Part shown: piece after piece, positions 29,671 to 62,942 of the stretch
Layout of the letters: each line of letters starts with the position of its first letter
Numbering within the stretch: position 1 is the first letter of the stretch
Assembly: GCA_025774935.1 (NCBI GenBank)
Contig: JALGZK010000013.1
Span: 26,391 to 90,390 of the forward strand
Direction of reading: 5' to 3'
Source: a bacterium
GTDB lineage: Bacteria > Joyebacterota > Joyebacteria > Joyebacterales > Joyebacteraceae
Length of the DNA stretch: 64,000 bases
Position numbers and translations under genes: made by a program
Notes under the pieces: model-generated
What the model saw: the letters and a program-made list of their open reading frames with translations, nothing else
Database searches by the model: none
Told to the model about the DNA's origin: nothing

Positions 29671-30126
29671 CTACACCTCTCCCCCGGTCCCGTCCCCCGC
29701 TCCCTTCGTGATCTTGCGCATCCTGACGGTCGTGCCCGTCTCCTCCGACATCTCGAATTCGACCTCGTCCATCGTCGCCCGCATGATGAAGACCCCCCGC
29801 CCCGAGCACTTCATGCAGTGCTCTTCGTCGGTCGGATCCCACACGCAGCTCTCGTCGAAGCCCTCGCCCTCGTCGTGAACGCTGATCCGGATCTCGTCAG
29901 GGTCCCACTCGCAGTTGACGGTCACCTTCTTGTCCTTGTCGAGCCGGTTGCCGTGGACTACGGCGTTCGTCACCGCCTCGATCATAGCCAGCGCCACTTC
30001 GTTCTGGGTCTTCCCGTCGAGTGTCTTGAAGTGCTCGCAGCCGAGGAGAATCTCGTCGACACGCTCAAGCGTCTCGTACTCGCTAGGAAGCACGAGTCTC
30101 TGGCTCCCAGACCCCGCATCAGACAT
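29671..30126 (-). CDS. Anti-sigma factor serine kinase, RsbW-like ATPase
   Basis: The 151-residue product is a stand-alone GHKL ATPase domain. It has the N-box AMIEAVTNAVVHGN, G1 box VHDEGEGFD and G2 box SGRGVFIMRATMDEVEF of the RsbW/SpoIIAB family. These bind a sigma factor or partner and phosphorylate a STAS-domain antagonist. A Cys pair (CVWDPTDEEHCMKC) in the ATP-lid region is a common variant in proteins of this kind. The start is taken as ATG 30126; upstream in-frame residues are basic and lie in the gap after the STAS gene. It follows the STAS gene by 22 bases, so they form a partner-switching pair. The target sigma factor is not in the window. Confidence 0.88.
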   Translation of the reverse strand: MSDAGSGSQRLVLPSEYETLERVDEILLGCEHFKTLDGKTQNEVALAMIEAVTNAVVHGNRLDKDKKVTVNCEWDPDEIRISVHDEGEGFDESCVWDPTDEEHCMKCSGRGVFIMRATMDEVEFEMSEETGTTVRMRKITKGAGDGTGGEV

Positions 30127-30148
30127 GGTCGCTCTCTCGGTCGGGTCG

Positions 30149-30484
30149 CTAGAAGCTCTCGATCGCTTCCTTCTCCGTTGCGTACGTGTCAAAGATCGTC
30201 AACAGCTTCGTGATCATGAACAGGCTCTGGATCCGGTCGGAGACGTGCGCGAGCTTGAGCGCGCCCTCGCCCCTCTGGACGCTCGTGTAGACGGCCATGA
30301 GCGCCCCGAGCCCCGTGCTGTTGATCCACGGCACGCCCTTGAGATTGACCACGAACTTCGTCGTGCCCTTGTCGAGGAGCTGCTTGATCTCGTTCCTCAG
30401 GTTCTCACTCTCGGGTCCTCCCATGAGCTTCCCCGAGACGTGAACGATGGCGACATCACCTTCCATCTGGGTCTTTACCTTCAA
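30149..30484 (-). CDS. STAS-domain anti-anti-sigma factor
   Basis: The 111-residue product is a single STAS domain of the RsbV/SpoIIAA kind. The regulatory serine is S56 in PWINSTGLGALM, intact, so it can be phosphorylated by the kinase encoded next. Unphosphorylated it would bind that kinase and free its target. The start codon is TTG 30484, with GGAGG six bases upstream (TGGATT spacer); no ATG is as well placed. A TTG start suggests translation is kept low compared with the kinase. Confidence 0.92.
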   Translation of the reverse strand: MKVKTQMEGDVAIVHVSGKLMGGPESENLRNEIKQLLDKGTTKFVVNLKGVPWINSTGLGALMAVYTSVQRGEGALKLAHVSDRIQSLFMITKLLTIFDTYATEKEAIESF

Positions 30485-31168: not shown

Positions 31169-34100
31169 ATGAGCAGACTGCCAAAGACGGTATCCCTGAT
31201 CATCATTCTGGCTCTCTTCGCGATGACGGTCGACCCCATCCTGGGCCACGTCATCGGTCGGAGCGTCCCCTTCCTGAACATGAGGCTCGCCGGGGACCTC
31301 TTCCACGAGGTCATCTACCGCGCGGTCATCCTCCTGGTCGTCGCGGGAGTCTACCTCGCGCCCGGCATGTTCATGTCGCGCGTCAAGCTCGCCGAGGAAG
31401 AGGCGAAGCACCTGAACGGGAAGCTCGAGACGGTCCGGAGCATCATCGGGTTCACGATCCGCGAGACCGACGTCGAGCCGCTCGTCGCCGAAGCGTGCGA
31501 GCAGCTGATCTCGACGCGGAACTACGAGAAGGTGTGGATCGGTATCTTCGACGGGAACGGTGGCCTGGCGGCCGCCGCCGAGGCGGGATGGGGCGAGGAG
31601 TTCGACGCGCTGCGGGACGCTATGAGGAACGGGAAGCGACCGACGTGCGCGCGTTCCGCGATCACGCAGCCCGACCCGGTCGTGTTCCAGGACCCGGTCG
31701 CCGAGTGCGGCGACTGCCCGCTCAAGCCGAAGCACTACGGCCGCGGGAATCTCATCGTGCGCATCGCCGCCGGCGACAAGACGTACGGCGTCCTGTGCGT
31801 GTCCGCGCCGCCTCACACCGTGGGCGACGACGAGGAGAAGTCGCTCCTCCTGAAGGTGGCATGGGACCTCGGAATGACCCTCCGGGCGATCGAGCTCGAG
31901 AGGATGCGCTCGCGAACAGCGGACGAACTCGAGAGCGAGAGGAAGTCGGCGGAGGCGCTCGCCCGGCTGACCGACGCGGTCGTAGCGTGCGACGCCCCCG
32001 TCCACGAGATTGCCGAGAGCGTTCTCGCTCACGCCATGGCCACGACCGGTAGCAGCGAGGGTGTCGTCTGGATGTTGGACCCCAGGACCGGCGAGCCCAT
32101 CGTCCAGTCGTCAAATGGCCTCCCCTCGTCATCGAGCGCCGCGTTCGCGCAGTCCGGCAATGAGACCGGCGAGGCGGAGACCGGCGAGGCCGGGCCCCCG
32201 CCCGCTGACACGTCCCCCTCGGGGCGGTACCCCGGGCTCTGGACGTGCGTCCTCGAGACCTCAAAGACGCTCCGGACGAACGAGCCACAGCTGAGCGACG
32301 AGTGGGATGGCGTGACCGGCACGGCGTCCCCTATTTCGAGCTTCCTCGGTGTGCCCGCCGTCGCGGCGGGCCACCTCCTCGGCGTGATCGCCGTGGCGAA
32401 CTCGAGCCGCGGCTACACGCCGGAGGACGAGCAGGCGCTCGAGCGCCTCGCCGACATCTACGCCGCCGCGGCCCAGCGCCGGCTGGCGGAACAGGAGATC
32501 AGCGTGGCGGAGCGGGCCGTCGACAACTCGCTCGACCCCGCCGTGATCGCCGACGACACGGGCGCGGTCGTTCGCGTCAACGACGCCTTCCTGAAGACGT
32601 GGAACTACAGCGAAGTCCCACAGGTTCTGGGCGTCCCGGTCGGCCGCTTCCTCGTGAACCAGCAGGCCGTCTCGGAGATGCTCAACGAGCTCAAGGCCGA
32701 CGGCCGGTGGGCCGGCGACCTCGAGGCCAAGCACTCAGACGGTTCCTCGTTCCCCGTCTCAGCCTCCGCCACCGTCGCGACCGACCAGTCCGGGAAGACC
32801 CTCGCGCTGGCGTTCTCGTTCGTCGACGAGACAGAGCGCAGGACGTCTACGCTCGAGCGCGAGATCGTACGCGCCGTCTCGGCGAAGGCGGGTTCGAGCG
32901 AGGACATGCACGAGCTCTACCGGACGGTGCGACAGCAGCTCGGCAAGCTCATCGACACGCGGAACTTCTTCGTCGCTCTCTACGACGAGGAGACCGAGAG
33001 GATCGATCTTCCGCTCTTCCTCGACGAGAAGGACCAGAACCAGTTCGAGACGCTCCCACCGGGGAAGACCCTGACCGGCCACGTCGTGAGAACCCGTGCG
33101 CCGCTCCTGGCAACTGAGGAGGACGTGGCCCGCATGGTCACGACCGGCGAGATCGAGGTCGTGGGCACGCCGTGCAAGTCGTGGCTGGGCGTTCCCCTCC
33201 TCTCTCCCGAAGGAGCGATCGGTGCCATCGCGGTCCAGAGCTACACCGACGCGCGCGCATTCGGCGAGGACTCCGTGGATCTGATGTGCGACATCGCCGC
33301 GGTCGTAGCGACCGCGGTGTCCCGGAACGAGGCGGAGGGCGCCAAGAGGCACGGTGACGGGCGCTTCAACGCGATCGCGGAGACGTCGAACGACGCGCTG
33401 ATCAACGTCGACAGCCGCGGGAAGATCATCTTCTGGAACAAGTCGGCGGAGAACATGTTCGGGTACACGCCAGACGAAGCCGTCGGTCAGTCGTTCTCGC
33501 TCGTGGTGCCCGAGGGCTTCCTGCAGGCGCACGTCGACGGTCTCATGCGCGCGGTCTCGGCCGACGGTCAGGGCTACGTCCGGGCCAACGTCGAGGGCAT
33601 CGGTCTTCGCAAGGACGAGAGCGAGTTCCCGATGGAGCTCTCCATCGGCGCCTGGAAGTCGAACAACGACACCTTCTTCACGGCCGTCATCCGCGACATC
33701 ACCTCGAGGAAGCAGGCGGAGGAAGAGCTCCAGTTTTTGGGCTCGATCCCCCTCCAGGTGTCGGACGCGCTGATCGTGACCGACCTCAACTTCCGCGTGA
33801 CCTACGTCAACAAGGCCGCCGAGTATCTCTACGGGTATCCCGGCGGCGAGCTCGTCGGAAAGACGCTCGACGTCCTCTCCGCCGAGCCCTGGGGTGACGA
33901 CTTCCAGGACGAGATCCACCGGACGGTCTCGTCAGGGCGCGTGTGGAGCGGCGGGCGCATGAACCGACGGAAGGACGGAAGCACGTTCCTCGTCGAGTTC
34001 CGCGTCTCCCCTCTCAGGGACAGGCAGGGGCGTCTCTCCTCGTACATCTCGATCTTCCACGACATGACCGAGCGCAAGCGGGCGGAGCAGCTGCTCCAGA

Positions 34101-35803
34101 CGCTGAACGCCGCGGCCCTCGGCATGGAGCGCCACCTCACGGCCGATCAGATCCTCGAGGCGGTCGCCGACGAGCTCGAGAGAGTCGGGCTCTCGTGCGC
34201 GGTGCTCATGGCGTACCCAGGCAGGAGCGAGGTCACGCTGAGCTACGTGAGCAAGAGCGTCGTCTTCCCGGAGGCTGACGAGTACATCGACACGCTCGCC
34301 GTCGCGGGCGTTCCGGTCTCGGCGAACCCCGCGGACCCGATCCGGAGGGTCACGCGCGAGCGGCAGGCGATCTTCATCGAAGGTCAGCGGGGAGCCGTGG
34401 GCGGCAAGTCGGCGGCGTCCACGTGGGAGGAGGGCGACGGCCTCGCCGACATGCTCTACGCCGAACGCTCGATCCTCGCTCCGCTCATCGCCGGCGAGGA
34501 CGTCATCGGCGTTCTGGCCGTGCGCTCGGGTGAGCTCACGAGGAAGGACTCACCGGCCATCACGGCGTTCGCCAACCAGCTCGCTGCCGCGCTCCGCAAG
34601 GCGAACCTCATGCAGGAGCTCGAGAACAGCCTTCAGGAGCTCAAGAGAACGCAGGACATCCTCCTGCACGCGCAGAAGATGGAGGCGATCGGGAACCTCG
34701 CCGGAGGAGTCGCGCACGACTTCAACAACCTCCTGACCGCGATCACCGGCTACGCGGAGCTCGTGCTCCGCAGGGTCGAGGAGGGTGACCCGACGCACTC
34801 GGACGTGTCACAGATCAAGAAGGTCGGCGAGCAGGCGGCGGCCCTCACGGGTCAGCTCCTCGCGTTCAGCAGGAGGCAGCCCCTCCAGAAGAAGGTGCTC
34901 TGCCTGAACGACGTCATCTCGAACACCGACAAGATGCTCCGCAGGCTCATCGGCGAGGACGTCGAGCTCGTCGTCAACCTGGACGGAGCGCTCAGGGAGG
35001 TGAAGGCCGACTCGTCCCAGATCGAGCAGGTCATTATGAACCTCGCCATCAACAGCCGCGACGCGATGCCGGGCGGTGGAACGCTTACGATCCGCACCGA
35101 GAACGTCGCGCTCGGTGAGGAGGACTGCCAGGACGTCGGTGAGGCCACCCCGGGCGAGTACGCGCGGATCATCGTTCGGGACACGGGCGAGGGCATCGAC
35201 CAGGCGGTCGTCGACCGCATCTTCGAGCCGTTCTTCAGCACCAAGGAGGCCGGCAAGGGCACGGGGCTCGGCCTGTCGGTCGTCTACGGCATCGTCGCGC
35301 AGCACGGCGGCTGGATCGGGGTGTCGAGCGAGATCGGCGAGGGGACGACGTTCGAGGTGTACATGCCCGTCACGAACGACGTGACCGAGGAGGAACCGGT
35401 CGCGGAGGTCGCGATGGAGAAGATCCTCGGACACGGCGAGCGTATCCTGCTCGTCGAGGACGAGGACAACGTCCGTGACTTCGCCAGGAGAGCGCTCTGC
35501 GAGGGCGGCTACGAGGTCCTCGAGGCAACGAGCGCCGAGGAGGCGTTGGACATCTTCGAGAACGAGGAGAGGAAGGTCGACCTCATCTTCAGCGACGTCG
35601 TCCTGCCGGCCAAGAGCGGACTTCAGCTGGTCGAGGAGCTCCTATCGGTGAGCCCGGAGCTCCATGTTCTCCTCTCGAGCGGGTACACAGATCAGAAATC
35701 GCAGTGGTCCGTGATCGATGAAAGGGGACTCGCGTTCCTTCCGAAGCCCTACGACATCAGCGAGCTCCTCCGCACGATCCGGGAGACGATCGAACCCATC
35801 TAG
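31169..35803 (+). CDS. Hybrid sensor histidine kinase with multiple PAS/GAF domains (catalytically complete)
   Basis: The 1544-residue product has two N-terminal membrane helices (about 7-27 and 48-69). In order follow GAF (90-240), GAF (255-445), PAS (445-557), GAF (560-724), PAS (729-844), PAS (854-970), GAF (975-1145), HisKA (1157-1240), HATPase (1277-1407) and a receiver (1424-1544). Catalytic features are intact: H-box GGVAHDFNNLL with His1183, N-box MNLAINSRDAM, DTGEGID, GKGTGLGLS, and receiver Asp1476 in IFSDVVLP with a Lys in LPKPYD. It can therefore autophosphorylate and pass phosphate to its own receiver. The first GAF has a CxxCP motif (ECGDCPLKP). GGAG six bases before ATG 31169 favours this start over ATG 31157. 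A related, degenerate kinase follows downstream. Confidence 0.92.
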   Translation: MSRLPKTVSLIIILALFAMTVDPILGHVIGRSVPFLNMRLAGDLFHEVIYRAVILLVVAGVYLAPGMFMSRVKLAEEEAKHLNGKLETVRSIIGFTIRETDVEPLVAEACEQLISTRNYEKVWIGIFDGNGGLAAAAEAGWGEEFDALRDAMRNGKRPTCARSAITQPDPVVFQDPVAECGDCPLKPKHYGRGNLIVRIAAGDKTYGVLCVSAPPHTVGDDEEKSLLLKVAWDLGMTLRAIELERMRSRTADELESERKSAEALARLTDAVVACDAPVHEIAESVLAHAMATTGSSEGVVWMLDPRTGEPIVQSSNGLPSSSSAAFAQSGNETGEAETGEAGPPPADTSPSGRYPGLWTCVLETSKTLRTNEPQLSDEWDGVTGTASPISSFLGVPAVAAGHLLGVIAVANSSRGYTPEDEQALERLADIYAAAAQRRLAEQEISVAERAVDNSLDPAVIADDTGAVVRVNDAFLKTWNYSEVPQVLGVPVGRFLVNQQAVSEMLNELKADGRWAGDLEAKHSDGSSFPVSASATVATDQSGKTLALAFSFVDETERRTSTLEREIVRAVSAKAGSSEDMHELYRTVRQQLGKLIDTRNFFVALYDEETERIDLPLFLDEKDQNQFETLPPGKTLTGHVVRTRAPLLATEEDVARMVTTGEIEVVGTPCKSWLGVPLLSPEGAIGAIAVQSYTDARAFGEDSVDLMCDIAAVVATAVSRNEAEGAKRHGDGRFNAIAETSNDALINVDSRGKIIFWNKSAENMFGYTPDEAVGQSFSLVVPEGFLQAHVDGLMRAVSADGQGYVRANVEGIGLRKDESEFPMELSIGAWKSNNDTFFTAVIRDITSRKQAEEELQFLGSIPLQVSDALIVTDLNFRVTYVNKAAEYLYGYPGGELVGKTLDVLSAEPWGDDFQDEIHRTVSSGRVWSGGRMNRRKDGSTFLVEFRVSPLRDRQGRLSSYISIFHDMTERKRAEQLLQTLNAAALGMERHLTADQILEAVADELERVGLSCAVLMAYPGRSEVTLSYVSKSVVFPEADEYIDTLAVAGVPVSANPADPIRRVTRERQAIFIEGQRGAVGGKSAASTWEEGDGLADMLYAERSILAPLIAGEDVIGVLAVRSGELTRKDSPAITAFANQLAAALRKANLMQELENSLQELKRTQDILLHAQKMEAIGNLAGGVAHDFNNLLTAITGYAELVLRRVEEGDPTHSDVSQIKKVGEQAAALTGQLLAFSRRQPLQKKVLCLNDVISNTDKMLRRLIGEDVELVVNLDGALREVKADSSQIEQVIMNLAINSRDAMPGGGTLTIRTENVALGEEDCQDVGEATPGEYARIIVRDTGEGIDQAVVDRIFEPFFSTKEAGKGTGLGLSVVYGIVAQHGGWIGVSSEIGEGTTFEVYMPVTNDVTEEEPVAEVAMEKILGHGERILLVEDEDNVRDFARRALCEGGYEVLEATSAEEALDIFENEERKVDLIFSDVVLPAKSGLQLVEELLSVSPELHVLLSSGYTDQKSQWSVIDERGLAFLPKPYDISELLRTIRETIEPI

Positions 35804-35876
35804 GCGGGCCGGGCCTGGCCCCCCGCCGGCACGGACTGCCTCCCCCTCAGGGGGACGGCGTCCACTCGAGGTTACC

Positions 35877-36749
35877 GTGAAGCGAAAGATAACGACCATA
35901 AGCATCTCGCTCTGCGCGGGCGCCGCCTTCTGGGCGGCCGATGCGTACGTCGCCTCAAGAAGCGCGACGGGAGCCAGCTTCGTGGACCTCCTCTGGAGCG
36001 AGGCGCCGTTCCTGGCGCTGTTCGTGAGGTTCGGTGTCGTGGCCGGAATCCTCGGCGCCGGCATCATCGCCGTCTGGATCGGCGGGCGCATCGCCCGGTC
36101 GCGGAGGGCCGCGGTCGAGGTGGACGTTGCGCAGGATGGGGCTGAGGGCGAAAGACCTGCGGTCATGGCGTGGAACGCCGACGGAATCGCGAGCGCGGAC
36201 GGCGACTCCCCCGACGTCCCCGACAGGCAGGTCTGGGAGATCCACACGGACGGATTCCTCGACGGCCCCGAGCCGGATCAGGGACTCGAGACCGCGGAAG
36301 GGGCCGAGGACGAGACGTTCGCGTCCGAGGACGGGCCGATCGACGAGCCCGAGTTCGAGGAGATCGTCCACACTTCCGAGGACGAGGAATCGCGCATCGA
36401 GGAGATCGGGACCGACGAGACCCAGGCCGACGAGACGGAGGCCGACGGCTCGGAGGAGACTCACTACGCAGGTGATACCGACGGCGAGGCAGATACCGAC
36501 GTCGTGGCCGACACCGACGCCATGTCAGACGGCGACGACGTGGCCGACGGCGACGAGATGGCCGACGACGACGAGATGGCCGACGACGATCACCCGGCCG
36601 GGAACACCCCCGAGGAGATCCTGCAGAGCGCTGTCGACGAACTCGCGCAGGACAAAAGGTACCACACTGCGTGGGGCGCGTACATGGACGCCGGCGGACG
36701 GTACGCGGCGGCCCTCGGCAGCGGCCTCGCCGAGGACCCAGCCCCGTGA
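35877..36749 (+). CDS. Membrane module and half GAF domain, acidic; N-terminal part of the downstream pseudokinase
   Basis: The 290-residue product has two membrane helices (about 6-26 and 45-68) in the same arrangement as those of the preceding kinase. A very acidic low-complexity stretch (about 90-240) follows, with near-repeats such as VADGDEMADDDEMADDDH. The last 45 residues read like the first half of a GAF domain: DKRYHTAWGAYMDAGGR parallels TRNYEKVWIGIFDGNGG in the upstream kinase. The missing half opens the next gene, whose GTG overlaps this TGA as GTGA. Adding one C to the run 36742-36745 would fuse both frames. GTG 35877 has GAGGT six bases upstream. It is either a split gene, a frameshift or a sequencing error. 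Confidence 0.75.
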   Translation: MKRKITTISISLCAGAAFWAADAYVASRSATGASFVDLLWSEAPFLALFVRFGVVAGILGAGIIAVWIGGRIARSRRAAVEVDVAQDGAEGERPAVMAWNADGIASADGDSPDVPDRQVWEIHTDGFLDGPEPDQGLETAEGAEDETFASEDGPIDEPEFEEIVHTSEDEESRIEEIGTDETQADETEADGSEETHYAGDTDGEADTDVVADTDAMSDGDDVADGDEMADDDEMADDDHPAGNTPEEILQSAVDELAQDKRYHTAWGAYMDAGGRYAAALGSGLAEDPAP

Positions 36750-39700
36750 AGTGTGCCGACTGCCCGATCCGCGGCGCCTACCGCGGACGCTGGGCCATGA
36801 CCGCCCGACTTGAGAATGACGGGCAGCTTGTCGGTATGCTCTCCGTATCTATCTCCAAGAAGCGCGCCCGCGACTCGCGCGAGCACAGGCGCTTCCAGGA
36901 ATTCGCATCTTCGCTCGGCGCCGAGCTCGGCTGCTCGATCACCGACCAGCGCTGCGCTCCTGTCGACGACGCCCTGATGATACTCGCGAGCGCCGCGGCC
37001 ACTTCGCCGGGCGCCGGGTTCGTGACGGACCCGGGCGGGATCGTGAGACACGTTAACGCGTCCTGCCTGGAGCTCTGGGGGTACGAGGACCGGGAGGAGG
37101 TCGTCGGCCGGGCCGCTGCGACCCTCTGGGACTCGGAGGAGATCCACGCACTCGTCCAGAGCACGCTCGAGGAACAGGGCCGCTGGACGGGCACCCTCGC
37201 CGCGAAGCGAAAGGACCTCAGTCTGGTCGAGGTCGAGGCGTCGGCGCGGATAGTGACGAGCGAGGGCGGCGAGCCGCTCGGCGTCGCCTATTCATGCAGG
37301 CTCGTCGCGGGAGCCGGGTCGGACGACGAGTCCTCGGGCGAGAAGGCACTCGCGTCCGTGGGCGCATCGCCGGCATCGGACGACACCACATGGACGGCCA
37401 CGGAGGCCGCGGCCGGCGGGAAGGGCGAGACGGACGGAGTCGAGACGCAGTCCGGCGCCCCGATGGACGCGGACGGAGCGGGGGTCGGACCCGATGCCCC
37501 CGAAGGCGGGACGGGGCCGCCGGAACCGGGCGACCGTTCGTTGTCCGGCGGCAGAACACAGGATGCTCCGGAGACCACGCCCGGCGTCGCGGACGTCGTG
37601 CCTGACGCGGCACCGCCTACCGTGAGCGGCTGGGACGCGTCCTGGACGTTCCTGGAGGCCGCGGGAACGCCTGCCGTCTGTGTCGACGGTACCGGAGCCA
37701 TCGTCCGCGCGACCGCCGCGACCGAGGAGCTCCTCGGATATCGGCCGAGCGAGCTCGCCGACCACCCCCTGGACGCGCTCGTCAGGTGGGAGTCCGGCGG
37801 ACAGCAGCCGGAGTCCCTGACCGCCGCGCTCGCCGGCGAGTCGCCGAGGACCCGCGAGTTCCCGCTCAGCCGCGCCGACGGAACGACGCTCGACGCGTCG
37901 ATCAGGTTCGTCGACGCAGCGGCGGCCGGGCGCCCCGGCCAGACCGTCTGCATCATCGAAGACGCCAGCGGCCGGCGTGAGCTCGAGGAAGAGATCGCGC
38001 GCGAGCGCGAGAAGAGCGAGCAGCTGGCGGCCGCGCAGAAGAGAGCCGAGGAGGAGCTCGGTCGTGCCAGGGAGCGCTCGGAGGCAGAGCTCAGCCGCGA
38101 GCGTGAGAGAGCCGAGGCGGCTCTGGCCGAGCAGCGCAAGGCGATGGAGGAACTCGCAATCGAGCGCGTGACCGTCGAGCAGTACCTCGCAGAGCACGAC
38201 GACGCCTCGGACGAGCTCGACCGGACGAGGCAGGAGGCGGAAGACCTCCTCGCCTCTCAGATGGGTCTGCAGGAGACGCTCGACCTCGAGAGACTCAAGA
38301 CGGAGCGTACGCAGGCCGAGCTCGCGAAGCTGCAGGAGGAGCTCCGCGGCGAGCGCGAGAAGATCACCGAACTCAGGACGGAACAGGTTCGGGCCTCGGA
38401 AGAGGTCGCGAGAGAACGCAAGAAGGCCGAGCAGCTGGCCGAGGAACGGCAGAGGATCCGCGAGGAGCTCACCCGGGAGCGCGAGGAGTCGGCGAAGATC
38501 CGCGTGGCCTGGAGCGAGGCGGAGGAGGTTCTCTCCCACGAGAGGGCCCGGGCCGAGAAGCTCTTCCTCGGTCAGGAGAAGGCGCGCGAGGCGATCACGC
38601 GCGAGCGCGACCGGATGGCCGAGATGCAGGCGCACCTCGACGACGCGAGACAGAGCCTCTCCATCGAGACGAGCAGGACCGAGACCCTCGAGGCGGAGGC
38701 GAAGCGCATCGGGGAGCAGCTCGCCTGGCAGACCGAACGAACGGGCGAGCTCCAGGCGGAGCTCGAGAAGGCCAGGAAGGACGCGGCGCGCGCGGCCGAG
38801 GTGTCTCCCGGTGGCGCATCCAGGCGTCCCGACGTCGAGAAACGTCTCGAGGAGGAGCTCTCGAGGGCGCGGGAGGAGCGCGACTCGCACCGTGCGAATC
38901 TCGAGAGGATGGAGGACGCCCTTCTTGCGGAGAGGAAGAAGGCCGAAAGCTACCTGGCGGAGAGCCGGAGCATGCAGACCGAGCTCTCGAGAGACCGTGA
39001 CCGGACAAGGAGCTACCTCGACCTGGCGAGCGTGATCTTCATGACCCTCTCGGTCGACCAGACGGTTGTCGACATCAACGGGAGCGGGTGCGAGATCCTC
39101 GGGACCGGAAGGGACGGCGTCCTCGGAAGGAAGTGGAGCGATACGTTCGTGCCCGAGAGCGCGAGAGCCGAGGTGAAGTCCGAGTTCGACCGGCTCCTCT
39201 CCGGGAAGGCCAGGGAGATCAAGGAGTTCAGGAGCGTCGTTCTCGCGGCCGACGGCAGCGAGCGAAGCGTCGTCTGGAACTGCTCGCTCGTGACGGACGA
39301 AGAAGGACACCCGACCGCCGCGCTCTGCTCGGGCGCAGATGTCCCGAGCACGGAGCAGGAGGAAGCCGGGATGGCGCGCGGGCTGCCGGAGCAGATGCCC
39401 GATGCGATCCTCGTGACGGGGATCGACTTCGCGATCGCCGACGCGAACCCGGCGGCGGGAAGGCTCCACGGATGCGCGAGCGACGACCTCGTCGGGCAGA
39501 CCCCGAAGCTCGTCTCGAACGGCGACCGCGCCAGCGACATGCGGAACGAGATCCGGGACTCGATAGAGCAGGACGGGATCTGGTCCGGGACGCACTCGCT
39601 GACAGGCGCGGACGGAACGGTCGTGACGTGTCACACGCGCATCTCCCCGATCGTCGACGACTCGGGCGAGACGACGGGCTACCTGTTCGCGCAGCGCGAC

Positions 39701-41410
39701 GTCACCGCTCTCCGCCGCCGTGAGCGATTCGTGGCGGCCTCGAGCGACGCCGCTCTCGCGATGTCCCGCGCCCGGACGCCATCGGGAGTGCTCGACGCTG
39801 CGGAGCGCGAGCTCAGGAAGCTCGGCTTCTCATGCATCATGATGCTCGTGGACGAGGAGGAAGGCTCGATCGCGATCAAGCGCGCGACCGGTGACGGAGG
39901 CCCGTCGGCCGTCGACACCACCGTCGTCCGCGCCTCGATGGCCGAGACGCCGGAGCTCGCGGGAGCCTTCGAGGACCGCCAGACGGTCTTTTTGGAGGAC
40001 CCGGGAAGTCTGGCGATGCGCATGCTCAAGAAGGAGACCGTCGAGACCGCAGAACGAACCCAGAAGCTGTTCCAGGGCGGACGTGCCGCCCTCTCCCCTC
40101 TCGCCGTCGACGACGACGCGTTCGGCGTCGTGATCGTGCGGTCTCCGGAGTTCGCGGAGGAGCACGTCGCGTTCGCCACCTCGTTCGCGAACATCCTAGC
40201 GGCGGAGTGGAACAGGGCGACGCTTCTCGAGGAGCTCGAGAGCGCCCTCGCCGAGATGGAGGTGGCGCAGGCGCAGCTCGCTCACAACGGCGAGAAGGCC
40301 GACGTGATGGAGGTCGCGACCGGCGTCGTCCAGCAGATCGAGGGGAAGCTCGAGGCGATCGTCGGCTACGCCGACCTGCTCGCCAGCCGCCACGGTTCGG
40401 ACGACCCGACGCGCGAGGACATCGGCCAGATCAAGAAGGCCATCGAGGGCGCGAAGACGCTCATGACGCAGCTCGTGACCGTCAGCTCGGGCTCCGCACC
40501 TGAGGACACCGAGAGGCTCGACGCGAACGTCGTCATCAAGGCCATGGAGGAGACGCTCCGCCGCCTGGTCGGCAGCGAGGTGCAGGTCGTCACCGTCCTC
40601 CGCCCCAGGTTGGACAGCGCGATCATCGAGAAAGAGGAGCTCGAGCGCGTGATCGCGGACCTCGCCGTGAGCGCCCGTGACGCGATGGCGCACGGCGGCA
40701 CGCTCACCGTGAGGACGGAGAACCTCTCGCTCGACGCCAAGCAGCTCGCGGCCGGATCAGACGGGCGGCCCGGACGGTTCGTGCGCCTGTCGGTCGAGGA
40801 CACCGGTGAGGGCCTCGACGCAGAGTCCCTGGAGAGGATCTTCGATCCGTCGTTCAGCCCGAGGCGCCGTGACGGACGCAGCGCTCCCGGGCTGTCGGCG
40901 GTCCACGACATCGTGCAGAAGCGCGACGGGTGGATCGACGTGCAGACCGGTAGTGGCCGCGGCACGGTCTTCATGATCTACCTCCCGGCCGAAGAGCCGC
41001 TCGCCGAGGAGAAGTCGGGCAGGCGCATCGTGCGCGTGCCCGAGGAGCGGATCCTCGTCGTCGAGGACGAGATGGACGTCCGCCAGACGGCCGTCGAGGC
41101 CCTGGCCGACCAGGGCTACAGGGTCCTCGAGGCAGCGAGCGCGGAGGAGGCCCTCACGGTCTTCGCCGAGCAGGGCGGTCAGATCGACCTCGTCTTCAGC
41201 AACATCGTGCTTCCCGCCATGAGCGGGACGCAGCTCGCCGACGAGCTCAGAGCGAAGAGCCCGGAGATCCGGGTCCTCCTGAGCACCGGGAGGCTCGACG
41301 AGGACTACCAGGGGACTCTGGTCCGCGAGAAGGGCCTCCGTCTCCTGCAGAAGCCCTACGAGCCCTACGAGCTCGTGCGATCGATCCGGCTCGCGATGCG
41401 GGCGCACTAG
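36746..41410 (+). CDS. Giant degenerate hybrid histidine kinase (pseudokinase)
   Basis: The 1554-residue product begins with the second half of a GAF domain (VKCADCPIRGAYRGRW). Then come PAS (about 65-185), a Gly/Thr/Asp-rich linker (190-295), PAS (305-405), a coiled coil of about 345 residues (410-755), two PAS domains (758-868, 878-988), GAF (991-1155), a HisKA-like, an HATPase-like and a receiver-like domain. Against the upstream paralogue the key residues are lost: the H-box His is Gln1196 (TGVVQQIEGKLEAI), the N-box Asn residues are Asp and Ser (ADLAVSARDAM), the ATP-lid GTGLGLS reads SAPGLSA, and the receiver Asp is Asn1486 (LVFSNIVLP). The frame is intact throughout, so it is probably expressed as a non-catalytic sensor or partner. 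Start GTG 36746 overlaps the preceding stop. Confidence 0.88.
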   Translation: MKCADCPIRGAYRGRWAMTARLENDGQLVGMLSVSISKKRARDSREHRRFQEFASSLGAELGCSITDQRCAPVDDALMILASAAATSPGAGFVTDPGGIVRHVNASCLELWGYEDREEVVGRAAATLWDSEEIHALVQSTLEEQGRWTGTLAAKRKDLSLVEVEASARIVTSEGGEPLGVAYSCRLVAGAGSDDESSGEKALASVGASPASDDTTWTATEAAAGGKGETDGVETQSGAPMDADGAGVGPDAPEGGTGPPEPGDRSLSGGRTQDAPETTPGVADVVPDAAPPTVSGWDASWTFLEAAGTPAVCVDGTGAIVRATAATEELLGYRPSELADHPLDALVRWESGGQQPESLTAALAGESPRTREFPLSRADGTTLDASIRFVDAAAAGRPGQTVCIIEDASGRRELEEEIAREREKSEQLAAAQKRAEEELGRARERSEAELSRERERAEAALAEQRKAMEELAIERVTVEQYLAEHDDASDELDRTRQEAEDLLASQMGLQETLDLERLKTERTQAELAKLQEELRGEREKITELRTEQVRASEEVARERKKAEQLAEERQRIREELTREREESAKIRVAWSEAEEVLSHERARAEKLFLGQEKAREAITRERDRMAEMQAHLDDARQSLSIETSRTETLEAEAKRIGEQLAWQTERTGELQAELEKARKDAARAAEVSPGGASRRPDVEKRLEEELSRAREERDSHRANLERMEDALLAERKKAESYLAESRSMQTELSRDRDRTRSYLDLASVIFMTLSVDQTVVDINGSGCEILGTGRDGVLGRKWSDTFVPESARAEVKSEFDRLLSGKAREIKEFRSVVLAADGSERSVVWNCSLVTDEEGHPTAALCSGADVPSTEQEEAGMARGLPEQMPDAILVTGIDFAIADANPAAGRLHGCASDDLVGQTPKLVSNGDRASDMRNEIRDSIEQDGIWSGTHSLTGADGTVVTCHTRISPIVDDSGETTGYLFAQRDVTALRRRERFVAASSDAALAMSRARTPSGVLDAAERELRKLGFSCIMMLVDEEEGSIAIKRATGDGGPSAVDTTVVRASMAETPELAGAFEDRQTVFLEDPGSLAMRMLKKETVETAERTQKLFQGGRAALSPLAVDDDAFGVVIVRSPEFAEEHVAFATSFANILAAEWNRATLLEELESALAEMEVAQAQLAHNGEKADVMEVATGVVQQIEGKLEAIVGYADLLASRHGSDDPTREDIGQIKKAIEGAKTLMTQLVTVSSGSAPEDTERLDANVVIKAMEETLRRLVGSEVQVVTVLRPRLDSAIIEKEELERVIADLAVSARDAMAHGGTLTVRTENLSLDAKQLAAGSDGRPGRFVRLSVEDTGEGLDAESLERIFDPSFSPRRRDGRSAPGLSAVHDIVQKRDGWIDVQTGSGRGTVFMIYLPAEEPLAEEKSGRRIVRVPEERILVVEDEMDVRQTAVEALADQGYRVLEAASAEEALTVFAEQGGQIDLVFSNIVLPAMSGTQLADELRAKSPEIRVLLSTGRLDEDYQGTLVREKGLRLLQKPYEPYELVRSIRLAMRAH

Positions 41411-59944: not shown

Positions 59945-61315
59945 CTACGTCAGCAACTCAACCACTTCCTCCATACGCATTCCGCGCGACCCCTTCACTA
60001 GAAGGACCGCGTCGTCACCGAGACGCTCTCCGAGCGCCCGTGCGAGCGCGGCCTTGTCTTCGAACACGCTGGCCCTCTCCGGGTCCATCCCGGCGTCGAG
60101 CGCGCCGTCGCGGAGCGCCTCGACCTCCCGGCCGAAGAGGAACAGGTAGTCCACGCCGAGCGATGCCGCCGCGGCTCCCACCTCGCGGTGCGCTGTCTCG
60201 CTCCGGCTTCCAAGCTCGAGCATGTCCCCGAGCGCCGCCGCCGTCGTCCGGCCCCGACCGATGTCGATCAGGGTCCGGAGCGCGGCGCCGAGCGATCCGG
60301 GATTGCAGTTGTATGCGTCGTTGAGAACGGTCCACGAGCCGACCGTGAGGACCTTCATCCTCATCGGCGAGGGCTCGAACGACGAGAGCCCGCGTGCGGC
60401 CTCCCCCACCGTCACGCCGAGCGCCCGGCCGACCGCGATCGCCGCGAGGGCGTTCGAGACGTTGTGCGCGCCGGGCACCGGGAGCTCGACCCGGACCGGC
60501 TTCCCGCCGGCCACGACGACCTCGAACCGCACCCGGCCGTCGGCCTCCTCGATGCCGGTCGCCCTCACGTCCGCCGACGCGGCGGTCCCGAACGTCACGA
60601 CCCTGAAGGGCGCCCGGTGCTCCTGCGACATCACCATCGTGTCGTCCGCGTTCAGGATGGCGACTCCGTCGGAGGGGAGGGCGTCGAGGATCTCGCCCTT
60701 CGCCTCGGCGATCGCCTCGAGGGTCCCCATCGTCTCCATGTGCGCCTCGGCGACGTTCGTGATGACCGCCGTCTGAGGCCTCGCGATCCCCGCGAGACGG
60801 GTGATCTCGCCGGGGTGGTTCATGCCGATCTCCACGACCGCCGCGCCGTGCTCGCGCGTGAGACGGAAGAGCGTCAGGGGAACCCCGATGTGGTTGTTGT
60901 AGTTCCCCGCGGTCTTCGCGGTCCGCATGCTCGTCTCGAGCACGGCGGCGGCCATGTCCTTCGTCGTGGTCTTCCCGTTCGTTCCCGTCACTCCGACTAC
61001 CTTGAGGTCGAACTGGCGCCGGTACCACCCGGCGAGCTCCTGGAAGGCGTCGAGCGTGTCGCCGACCTCCAGGAGCGCGCGGCCTCCAGCGTCGATCCTG
61101 GCGTCGCGGGCGACGAGCGCCGCGGCCGCACCCTGGAGGAACGCGTCGTCGACGTAGTCGTGGCCGTCGAAGCGCTCGCCCCGGATCGCTACGAAGAGCT
61201 CACCCGCCGCGATCGTTCGCGAGTCGGTCGAGACGCCGCCGATCGGATCGTCGGGCAGGTTGTCGCTGGGTATTCCGAGTGCCGCCGCCATTTCAGTGAT
61301 TCGAACCCTCTCCAT
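59945..61315 (-). CDS. murF: UDP-MurNAc-tripeptide--D-Ala-D-Ala ligase MurF
   Basis: The 456-residue Mur ligase adds D-Ala-D-Ala. It shows GGVSTDSRTIAAGELFVAI in the N-terminal domain, VGVTGTNGKTTTKDMAAAVL, TAGNYNNHIGVPLTLF, VVEIGMNHPGEI, NVAEAHMETMG and LNDAYNCNPGSLGAAL, all MurF-type. The gene overlaps the end of murE by 23 bases, which implies coupled translation. Confidence 0.97.
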   Translation of the reverse strand: MERVRITEMAAALGIPSDNLPDDPIGGVSTDSRTIAAGELFVAIRGERFDGHDYVDDAFLQGAAAALVARDARIDAGGRALLEVGDTLDAFQELAGWYRRQFDLKVVGVTGTNGKTTTKDMAAAVLETSMRTAKTAGNYNNHIGVPLTLFRLTREHGAAVVEIGMNHPGEITRLAGIARPQTAVITNVAEAHMETMGTLEAIAEAKGEILDALPSDGVAILNADDTMVMSQEHRAPFRVVTFGTAASADVRATGIEEADGRVRFEVVVAGGKPVRVELPVPGAHNVSNALAAIAVGRALGVTVGEAARGLSSFEPSPMRMKVLTVGSWTVLNDAYNCNPGSLGAALRTLIDIGRGRTTAAALGDMLELGSRSETAHREVGAAAASLGVDYLFLFGREVEALRDGALDAGMDPERASVFEDKAALARALGERLGDDAVLLVKGSRGMRMEEVVELLT

Positions 61316-62942
61316 TCGATCCCGCGTCCCCGCGGAGCGTCCTGACCGCCGCGCGGGCCTCCTCCCGGTCGTCGAAGTGGACCTTCGTCTCGCCCAGGAT
61401 CTGGTAGTCCTCGTGTCCCTTGCCGGCGACGAGGACGATGTCGCCCGCCCCCGCCAGCTCGATCGCTCTCTGTATCGCGGCCCGCCGGTCCTCGATGACC
61501 TCGAACCCTCCCCCGCCCTCGGCGATGCCGCGCTCCACTCCCGGCACGATCTCGTCGATGATCGCCCGCGGATCCTCGGTGCGCGGGTTGTCCGACGTCA
61601 CGACCGCCACGTCCGAGCTTCGGGCGACGACCTCGCCCATCATCGGCCGCTTCCCGCGGTCGCGGTCGCCGCCGCACCCGAAGACGGTGATGATCCGCGA
61701 AGGCCCGAGCTCCCGGAGAGCCGCGAGGACCTTCTCGAGCGCGTCCGGCGTGTGCGCGTAGTCGACGACGATGGTGAACTCCTGCCCGGCGTCGACCAGC
61801 TCGAGCCTCCCGTCCACGCGAGACACCCGCCCCAGGCCTGCCTGGATGACCTCGAGCGTGGCGCCCTGGGAGACCGCCACTGCGGTCGCCGCCAGGGCGT
61901 TCATCACGTTGAACGCGGAGATGAGCCTCAGGTTCGCGTCGAACGAGCCGCCGGGCGTCTCGAACCGCGCGATCGTGCCCGTCGGCGTGCTCACGACGTC
62001 GCTCGCCCTGACGTCCCCGTCCGTGCCGTACGTCACCAGATGCACGCGCGACGAGCCCCTAACCGACGCCGCCAGCTCCCTCCCGAACGGGTCGTCGACG
62101 TTCACGATCGCCGCGGCGCCCGGCTTCCACGCGTCGCCCTCGATGAGCTCGAAGAGCTTCCGTTTCGCGGCGCCGTACTCCTCGAAAGACCCGTGGAAGT
62201 CAAGGTGGTCGCGCGAGAGGTTCGTGAACGTCGCCGTGTCGAGCTTGAGCCCGATCGCGCGCCCGAGCGAGAGCGCGTGAGACGAGACCTCCATGGTCAC
62301 CGCCCGAACGCCGCCCTCGAGCATCGAGGAGAGAAGCCTCGCGAGGTCGAGCGACTCCGGACTCGTCATGTCGCCGGGCTGCAGGTGGTCGCCGACTCGG
62401 TATCCGAGCGTTCCGACGACCCCGGTCGTGAGCCCCGCCTCGCGCATGATCGCGTCGACGAGGTAGGAGGTCGTGGTCTTGCCGTTCGTTCCGGTGATCG
62501 CGTGCGTCTTGAGGTGCTCCGAGGGGCGGCCGTGGAGCTCGTGCGCGACGTGGCCGAGGATGGTCCTCGTGTTCTGGACGACGATCTCGCAGATGCCCGG
62601 CGTCCCCGTCGCCTCTTCCACGAGCGCGGCGGCCGCTCCCCGTTCAGCGGCTTCGGCGAGGTAGCGGTGCCCGTCGGTGACGAACCCGCGGACCGCGACG
62701 AAGAGGCTGCCCGGGCGGACGCGCCTCGAGTCGTACTCGACCGCGCGCACGACGATGCCGGCGGCATCGGCGTCGACGTCGATCCCGCAGCAGTGCTCGA
62801 GGAGGTCGCCGAGCGTGACCGGCGCCGGGTCGTGCGCCCCGGTCAGGGCGCTGCCCAGCCCGTCGCCCCGCGGATCGCTCCCGCCGGCATTGTCGCTGGA
62901 ACCTGTTCCGGTCCCGGACATCGTCCCCTCGATTCGGGTCAT
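61293..62942 (-). CDS. murE: UDP-MurNAc-L-Ala-D-Glu--meso-DAP ligase MurE
   Basis: The 549-residue Mur ligase adds the third residue of the stem peptide. ATP loop THAITGTNGKTTTSYLVDA, TMEVSSHALSLGRA, NLSRDHLDFHGS, VDYAHTPDALEKVL and SDNPRTEDPRAIID are present. The DNPR motif is the mark of the meso-diaminopimelate-adding form, so the wall is probably of the DAP type. The first 35 residues are a Gly/Ser/Asp-rich extension. Three starts compete: GTG 62954, ATG 62942 (overlapping the upstream stop as ATGA, chosen) and a later ATG with GAGGGG close upstream. Confidence 0.95.
   Translation of the reverse strand: MTRIEGTMSGTGTGSSDNAGGSDPRGDGLGSALTGAHDPAPVTLGDLLEHCCGIDVDADAAGIVVRAVEYDSRRVRPGSLFVAVRGFVTDGHRYLAEAAERGAAAALVEEATGTPGICEIVVQNTRTILGHVAHELHGRPSEHLKTHAITGTNGKTTTSYLVDAIMREAGLTTGVVGTLGYRVGDHLQPGDMTSPESLDLARLLSSMLEGGVRAVTMEVSSHALSLGRAIGLKLDTATFTNLSRDHLDFHGSFEEYGAAKRKLFELIEGDAWKPGAAAIVNVDDPFGRELAASVRGSSRVHLVTYGTDGDVRASDVVSTPTGTIARFETPGGSFDANLRLISAFNVMNALAATAVAVSQGATLEVIQAGLGRVSRVDGRLELVDAGQEFTIVVDYAHTPDALEKVLAALRELGPSRIITVFGCGGDRDRGKRPMMGEVVARSSDVAVVTSDNPRTEDPRAIIDEIVPGVERGIAEGGGGFEVIEDRRAAIQRAIELAGAGDIVLVAGKGHEDYQILGETKVHFDDREEARAAVRTLRGDAGSNGEGSNH

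Follow-up and report, generated by a model that had tools for sequence, protein, structure and literature searches.

The 64,000-nucleotide stretch of a Joyebacterota genome analysed in the present study, hereafter the window, carries two neighbouring sensor kinase genes on the forward strand. The first, kinase A (31169..35803), encodes a hybrid histidine kinase of 1544 aa according to Pfam and alignment, and the second, B, is present as two overlapping reading frames, B1 (35877..36749) and B2 (36746..41410; 1554 codons with a GTG start). An initial annotation had described kinase A and the B2 product at these coordinates as two proteins with the same C-terminal domain order, which both Pfam and alignment bear out (PAS-PAS-GAF-DHp-HATPase-REC); HATPase_c and Response_reg are recognised by Pfam in both proteins, HisKA only in A, and an Hpt domain is absent from B. 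Kinase A and the front of B are separated by 73 bp in the window, a spacing by which the pair looks like a two-gene unit.

Orthologues were sought in 20 genomes of the phylum, all belonging to one family, and the MAGs of Joyebacterota, of which JALGVN01 is a genus, have likewise all been placed in a single family (PMC13271369). The chromosome is collinear around the locus, with recG followed by an RsbW-like HATPase_c_2 gene (29671-30192 on the reverse strand of the window), a kinase slot adjoining it, and a C25 protease gene on the opposite strand. Kinases A and B together fill the slot in four genomes of two genera, namely the window genome (G000), G001, G002 (record JALGVN010000007.1) and G008, and B always lies directly after A. 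In G009 and G019 the slot holds A and an active hybrid kinase, X, and in most other genomes a single active kinase; kinase A is therefore found without B in G009 and G019, and probably also in G012. In almost every genome of the phylum examined, the RsbW-like gene is next to this slot, and the kinases may be linked with an anti-sigma-type factor.

In the three relatives B is a single frame, with stop-to-stop lengths of 1899 (G002), 1971 (G001) and 1984 codons (G008), and ahead of the B2 equivalent it encodes a complete GAF1 domain, preceded by two predicted transmembrane (TM) helices and a long acidic stretch. In the window the same TM pair and acidic segment, together with the N-terminal half of GAF1, are encoded by B1 in another frame, as protein and DNA alignment showed, and the wider B1 frame is 60% identical to residues 29-322 of the G002 orthologue. 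The shift of frame stems from 91 bp that are missing by comparison with G002; the junction lies inside GAF1, at 36738/36739 on the forward strand, where the frame is open in G001, G002 and G008. The 1554 codons that had been taken for an intact frame are consequently only the C-terminal part of a gene of 1899-1984 codons split by this deletion, although they contain no other stop. Stop codons or frameshifts in orthologues had been named in the initial annotation as a sign against a maintained gene; the orthologues proved to be open, and the sole frame break in B is that of the window copy itself.

The 91-bp deletion is either a real lesion or an assembly error; G002 is a MAG and the window assembly consists of 40 contigs. 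Among 19 compared genes derived from G002, B shows the only clear window-side break, and G002 has breaks of its own, such as that in the homologue of window gene 59948-61597 (G002:C95), which is broken relative to the window gene. The few smaller breaks flagged against G001 and G008 look like overlapping-frame noise or gene-end differences. At 36746-36749 the sequence GTGA overlaps the B1 stop (TGA) with the B2 start (GTG), and GAGGA lies just upstream, an arrangement by which translational restart or coupling would be possible. If the deletion is real, B of the window strain may have its membrane and GAF1 front severed from its remainder.

Kinase A consists, in order, of two predicted TM helices, GAF1, GAF2, PAS1, GAF3, PAS2, PAS3, GAF4, DHp, HATPase and REC. 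Its HisKA-HATPase-REC core is canonical in alignment, with all catalytic residues present, including the phospho-acceptor His of the HDFNN motif (34715..34717, forward strand), and the closest solved structure to this core by sequence is that of CckA (5idj; E 1.7e-63), which identifies A by homology as a CckA-like hybrid histidine kinase. In CckA the c-di-GMP-binding residues of the CA domain are Tyr514, Lys518, Trp523 and Ile524 (PMC7288161). The kinase A core (34616-35800) keeps the Tyr, Trp and Ile at these positions, not the Lys, and on the strength of these three positions A might respond to c-di-GMP. The same type of sensing was rejected for the B core, which has His at position 514 in all four proteins and no Lys at 518, the Trp-Ile pair being kept. 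Regarding the signal route onward from the kinase A receiver, no match to the Pfam Hpt model was found anywhere in the window genome, despite the hybrid kinases encoded there. In the G002 copy of kinase A (L031, about 9993), 50 bp that the window has are missing; the deletion takes out the ATP-lid motif and breaks the frame, and is again either a lesion or an assembly error.

The domains of B are laid out along the forward strand as follows. The acidic segment of B1 (36111..36596; 38% Asp+Glu, 2% Lys+Arg) lies between the TM pair and GAF1 and is fast-evolving (omega about 0.36), and the orthologues have similar stretches. The C-terminal half of GAF1, including a CxxC motif, and PAS1 (36746..37315) are of the A type in profile searches. 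Three cysteines (C...CxxC) are common to the GAF1 of kinase A and of the complete B orthologues, and could possibly form a metal or redox site; the window deletion, at the B1/B2 junction (about 36740-36770), removes the first of them from B. A coiled coil of about 345 residues is predicted from heptad-like, E/R/L-rich sequence (37991..39025), followed by PAS3 (39026..39370), which by profile scores is of the type of the active slot kinases X and K and not of A, and by PAS4 and the last GAF domain (39371..40210; Pfam and profiles). The C-terminal core comprises a degenerate DHp (40211..40450), a degenerate HATPase (40451..41005) and a pseudo-receiver (41033..41407). An AlphaFold2 model of the B core as a monomer (mean pLDDT 77.8) is mostly confident in HATPase and REC and less so in DHp, and its low pTM of 0.45 leaves the domain arrangement uncertain. 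Foldseek searches with this model gave ZraS and CckA as best matches, with DivL (4q20) among the matches.

The catalytic positions of B were compared across the four orthologues, listed here in the order window/G002/G001/G008, and against 23 other kinases. At the H-box His the four proteins have Q/H/G/K (in the window codon 40331-40333, Gln1196, or 1221 in P0002), at the Asp following it Q/Q/Q/E, and at the H-box Asn, four positions on from the His, G/G/K/D, giving the motifs QQIEG/HQIEG/GQIEK/KEIAD. The first N-box Asn is replaced by D/D/D/G (window Asp at 40658-40660) and the second reads S/N/N/N, the Ser (40670-40672) being private to the window; in place of the GTGLG lid motif (40877-40891) stand RSAPG/RSAPG/RTTRN/RAGFG. 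The receiver Asp is N/N/N/N (codon 41201-41203, Asn1486, or 1511 in P0002) and is preceded by Ser in all four. The DTG.G block (DTGEG at 40799-40813 in the window), the receiver acid pair and the receiver Lys are kept in all four proteins. These results agree with the initial annotation in its residue numbering and in the residues listed as kept. Its statement that every key residue is lost stands for the window in the H-box Gln, the N-box Asp and Ser and the receiver Asn, but one of the three ATP-lid glycines is retained; moreover, the loss of the second N-box Asn is confined to the window and one relative has the H-box His. The G002 codon is CAC as against CAG, and a retained or a regained His would both fit.

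At 70 alignment columns at least 95% of the 23 other kinases share one residue, and in all four B proteins 28 of these are lost and 28 kept. The shared losses are not scattered, falling mostly within the H, N, F and G2 boxes and the receiver active site, and since they are common to the four proteins the catalytic loss is most simply read as ancestral to the B clade. The H-box residue drifts among the four while the receiver Asn is fixed. As judged by alignment, the B orthologues are without the residues on which autophosphorylation, phosphatase activity of the transmitter and phosphorylation of the receiver depend. With these losses, a fold that appears to be kept and a modelled core that matches histidine kinases, B falls under the general definition of a pseudo-histidine kinase, and its PF00072 domain, which lacks a phosphorylatable Asp in all four proteins, under that of a pseudo-receiver.

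Selection was estimated between the window and G002 by codon maximum likelihood (F3x4, own implementation). B2 has an omega of 0.065 (dN 0.081, dS 1.25), similar estimates being obtained for its GAF1 half with PAS1 (0.063) and the coiled coil (0.048), as well as for kinase A (0.047), with the reservation that a dS of about 1.2, being above 1, makes the exact omega values rough. Within the core, omega is 0.03-0.05 (HATPase 0.031, REC 0.041, DHp 0.052), and HATPase and REC are the best-conserved parts of B in within-genus comparisons. The acidic linker (0.40) and B1 (0.34; its half GAF 0.18) are less constrained. An omega of 1 was rejected strongly in every folded domain and weakly in the acidic linker. 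Private amino-acid changes, polarised with G001 as outgroup, number 38 in window B and 71 in G002 B, against 44 and 37, respectively, in A, counts that indicate no relaxation of B in the window lineage. The dead core of B is under strong purifying selection, and general decay is ruled out by dN/dS. Selection for a non-enzymatic role, as had been proposed from the window sequence, is thereby well supported, with B dead in four genomes of two genera and omega far from the value near 1 that would have spoken against it.

The four B proteins form one clade (support 100/100) with long branches. An origin of B by mere duplication of A in tandem inside these two genera was rejected, as the AU test gave p = 6e-6 for a clade of B with the four same-genome A kinases. 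Neither a grouping of B with all A (p 0.20) nor one with X (p 0.08) was rejected, and the best tree joins B with K on a branch without support; A, X and K are thus all candidate sources of the core. The initial annotation had held that relatives with a catalytic second kinase would argue against its reading; X is indeed such an active kinase in the slot of G009 and G019, but it belongs to another clade in the tree and is no demonstrated orthologue of B. Domain profiles give a composite picture: the GAF1 profile of B scores 60-75 bits with kinases of the A type and at most 4 with others, A is also the best match to PAS1, PAS3 matches X and K at 79-89 bits with no A among the best matches, PAS4 fits K and A, and the last GAF fits A and X. 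By these profiles B is a mosaic of an A-type GAF-PAS front and a PAS domain otherwise found only in active slot kinases of related genera.

Several characterised systems resemble this arrangement in part. DivL of Caulobacter acts in vivo without kinase activity, its dead core serving as a sensor that works on CckA (PMC4211667; PMC5189948); like B it is PAS-rich, and its partner is the closest solved relative of the kinase A core. In DivL, however, a Tyr replaces the His, a receiver is absent and the signal sensed is DivK~P, a phosphorylated single-domain regulator, whereas B has Q/H/G/K at the His, a Response_reg end, a coiled coil and a gene adjoining that of A. RetS of Pseudomonas is a hybrid kinase that cannot autophosphorylate, as is predicted for B, and restrains GacS in three ways (PMC5992135); its degenerate HATPase has no G-boxes, and that of B lacks the G2/ATP-lid motif but has G1 (DTGEG). 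Two of the three RetS mechanisms need the receiver Asp or the phosphatase Thr of HExxT, and as B is without equivalents of both, the one mechanism left to it would be for its core to inhibit autophosphorylation. In RcsD of the RcsCDB relay a dead kinase module works with an active hybrid kinase (PMC3762810), as is proposed for B, but RcsD also carries a functional HPt domain through which phosphate is relayed, whereas B has neither HPt nor phospho-site. In Corynebacterium glutamicum, where native ChrS and HrrS heterodimerise, a catalytically dead ChrS variant affects signalling by the paralogous kinase HrrS (PMC9491836); that variant is a frameshift from laboratory evolution and not a fixed natural gene, and its truncated form shows no clear heterodimer. 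In ShkA and CikA, as may be the case in B, a receiver-like domain regulates a kinase core without phosphorylation (PMC12632262), but these pseudo-receivers act on the catalytic core of their own chain, and the core of B is itself dead. B is a pseudo-histidine kinase, a kind already known, and is comparable with DivL and RetS in its most likely role.

We favour, with modest confidence, the reading that B is a catalytically dead, conserved protein whose most likely role is that of a non-catalytic allosteric partner of A. This role is suggested by gene order, shared front domains and precedent, and the constant position of B beside A together with its A-type front makes it the best single guess. 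Starting from a core that appears devoid of its phosphotransfer chemistry and is nevertheless under strong purifying selection, the proposed mechanism draws on the complete B of the relatives, in which an A-type GAF1-PAS1 front would follow two predicted TM helices, so that A and B are both probably membrane-seated and read related input. Contact with A would then be made by the DHp, the receiver or the coiled coil of B, whose sensors would switch A on or off as a kinase with no phosphotransfer involved. Speaking against a partner role, A occurs without B in two and probably three genomes, and B is known from four sequences, one of them split. The main rival, which we consider rather unlikely, dispenses with A: B would act on its own, as a homodimeric sensor or scaffold, and its conserved pseudo-HATPase and locked pseudo-receiver would bind another protein, such as a response regulator or the neighbouring RsbW-like factor. 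The concentration of constraint in the core could reflect any docking surface, the DivL core binds a response regulator (PMC4211667), the long coiled coil could drive self-assembly, and the RsbW-like gene adjoins the slot across the phylum; however, B is found only directly behind A and shares A-type front domains.

It is improbable that B keeps residual chemistry, whether by binding nucleotide through DTGEG or as the target of a modification in trans, for which the Ser adjoining the receiver Asn is one candidate site. The conservation of that Ser, of DTGEG and of the receiver acid pair and Lys in all four proteins is consistent with such activity, as are the second N-box Asn in three and the His in one, but the ATP-lid motif, the first N-box Asn, the H-box Asp and Asn and the receiver Asp are lost throughout, the H-box residue drifts, and a role in folding may explain why DTGEG and the acid pair persist. 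Decay of B, in the window lineage or altogether, appears less probable still: the frame break, the second N-box Asn lost in the window alone and the weaker constraint on the front (B1) would fit it, yet the frames of three relatives are open over their full lengths, omega is low, and the window lineage shows neither acceleration nor a further stop in B2. Returning to the partnership with A, its more specific form, in which B serves a sensor complex of two kinases as its dedicated allosteric subunit and works without phosphate, with an A-type GAF/PAS front, a slot-kinase-type back, and a dead ATPase and Asn-locked receiver as its most constrained functional parts, is put forward only tentatively.

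Loss of phosphorylation sites is uncommon, with 0.9% of HisKA domains lacking the His and 2.0% of receivers lacking the Asp (PMC12632262). B is without both sites, is fixed beside an active kinase and is most constrained in its dead core, and so provides a clean natural test case for the question of what use is made of a kinase fold that neither makes nor takes phosphate, with the active kinases that occupy this slot in related genera available for comparison.
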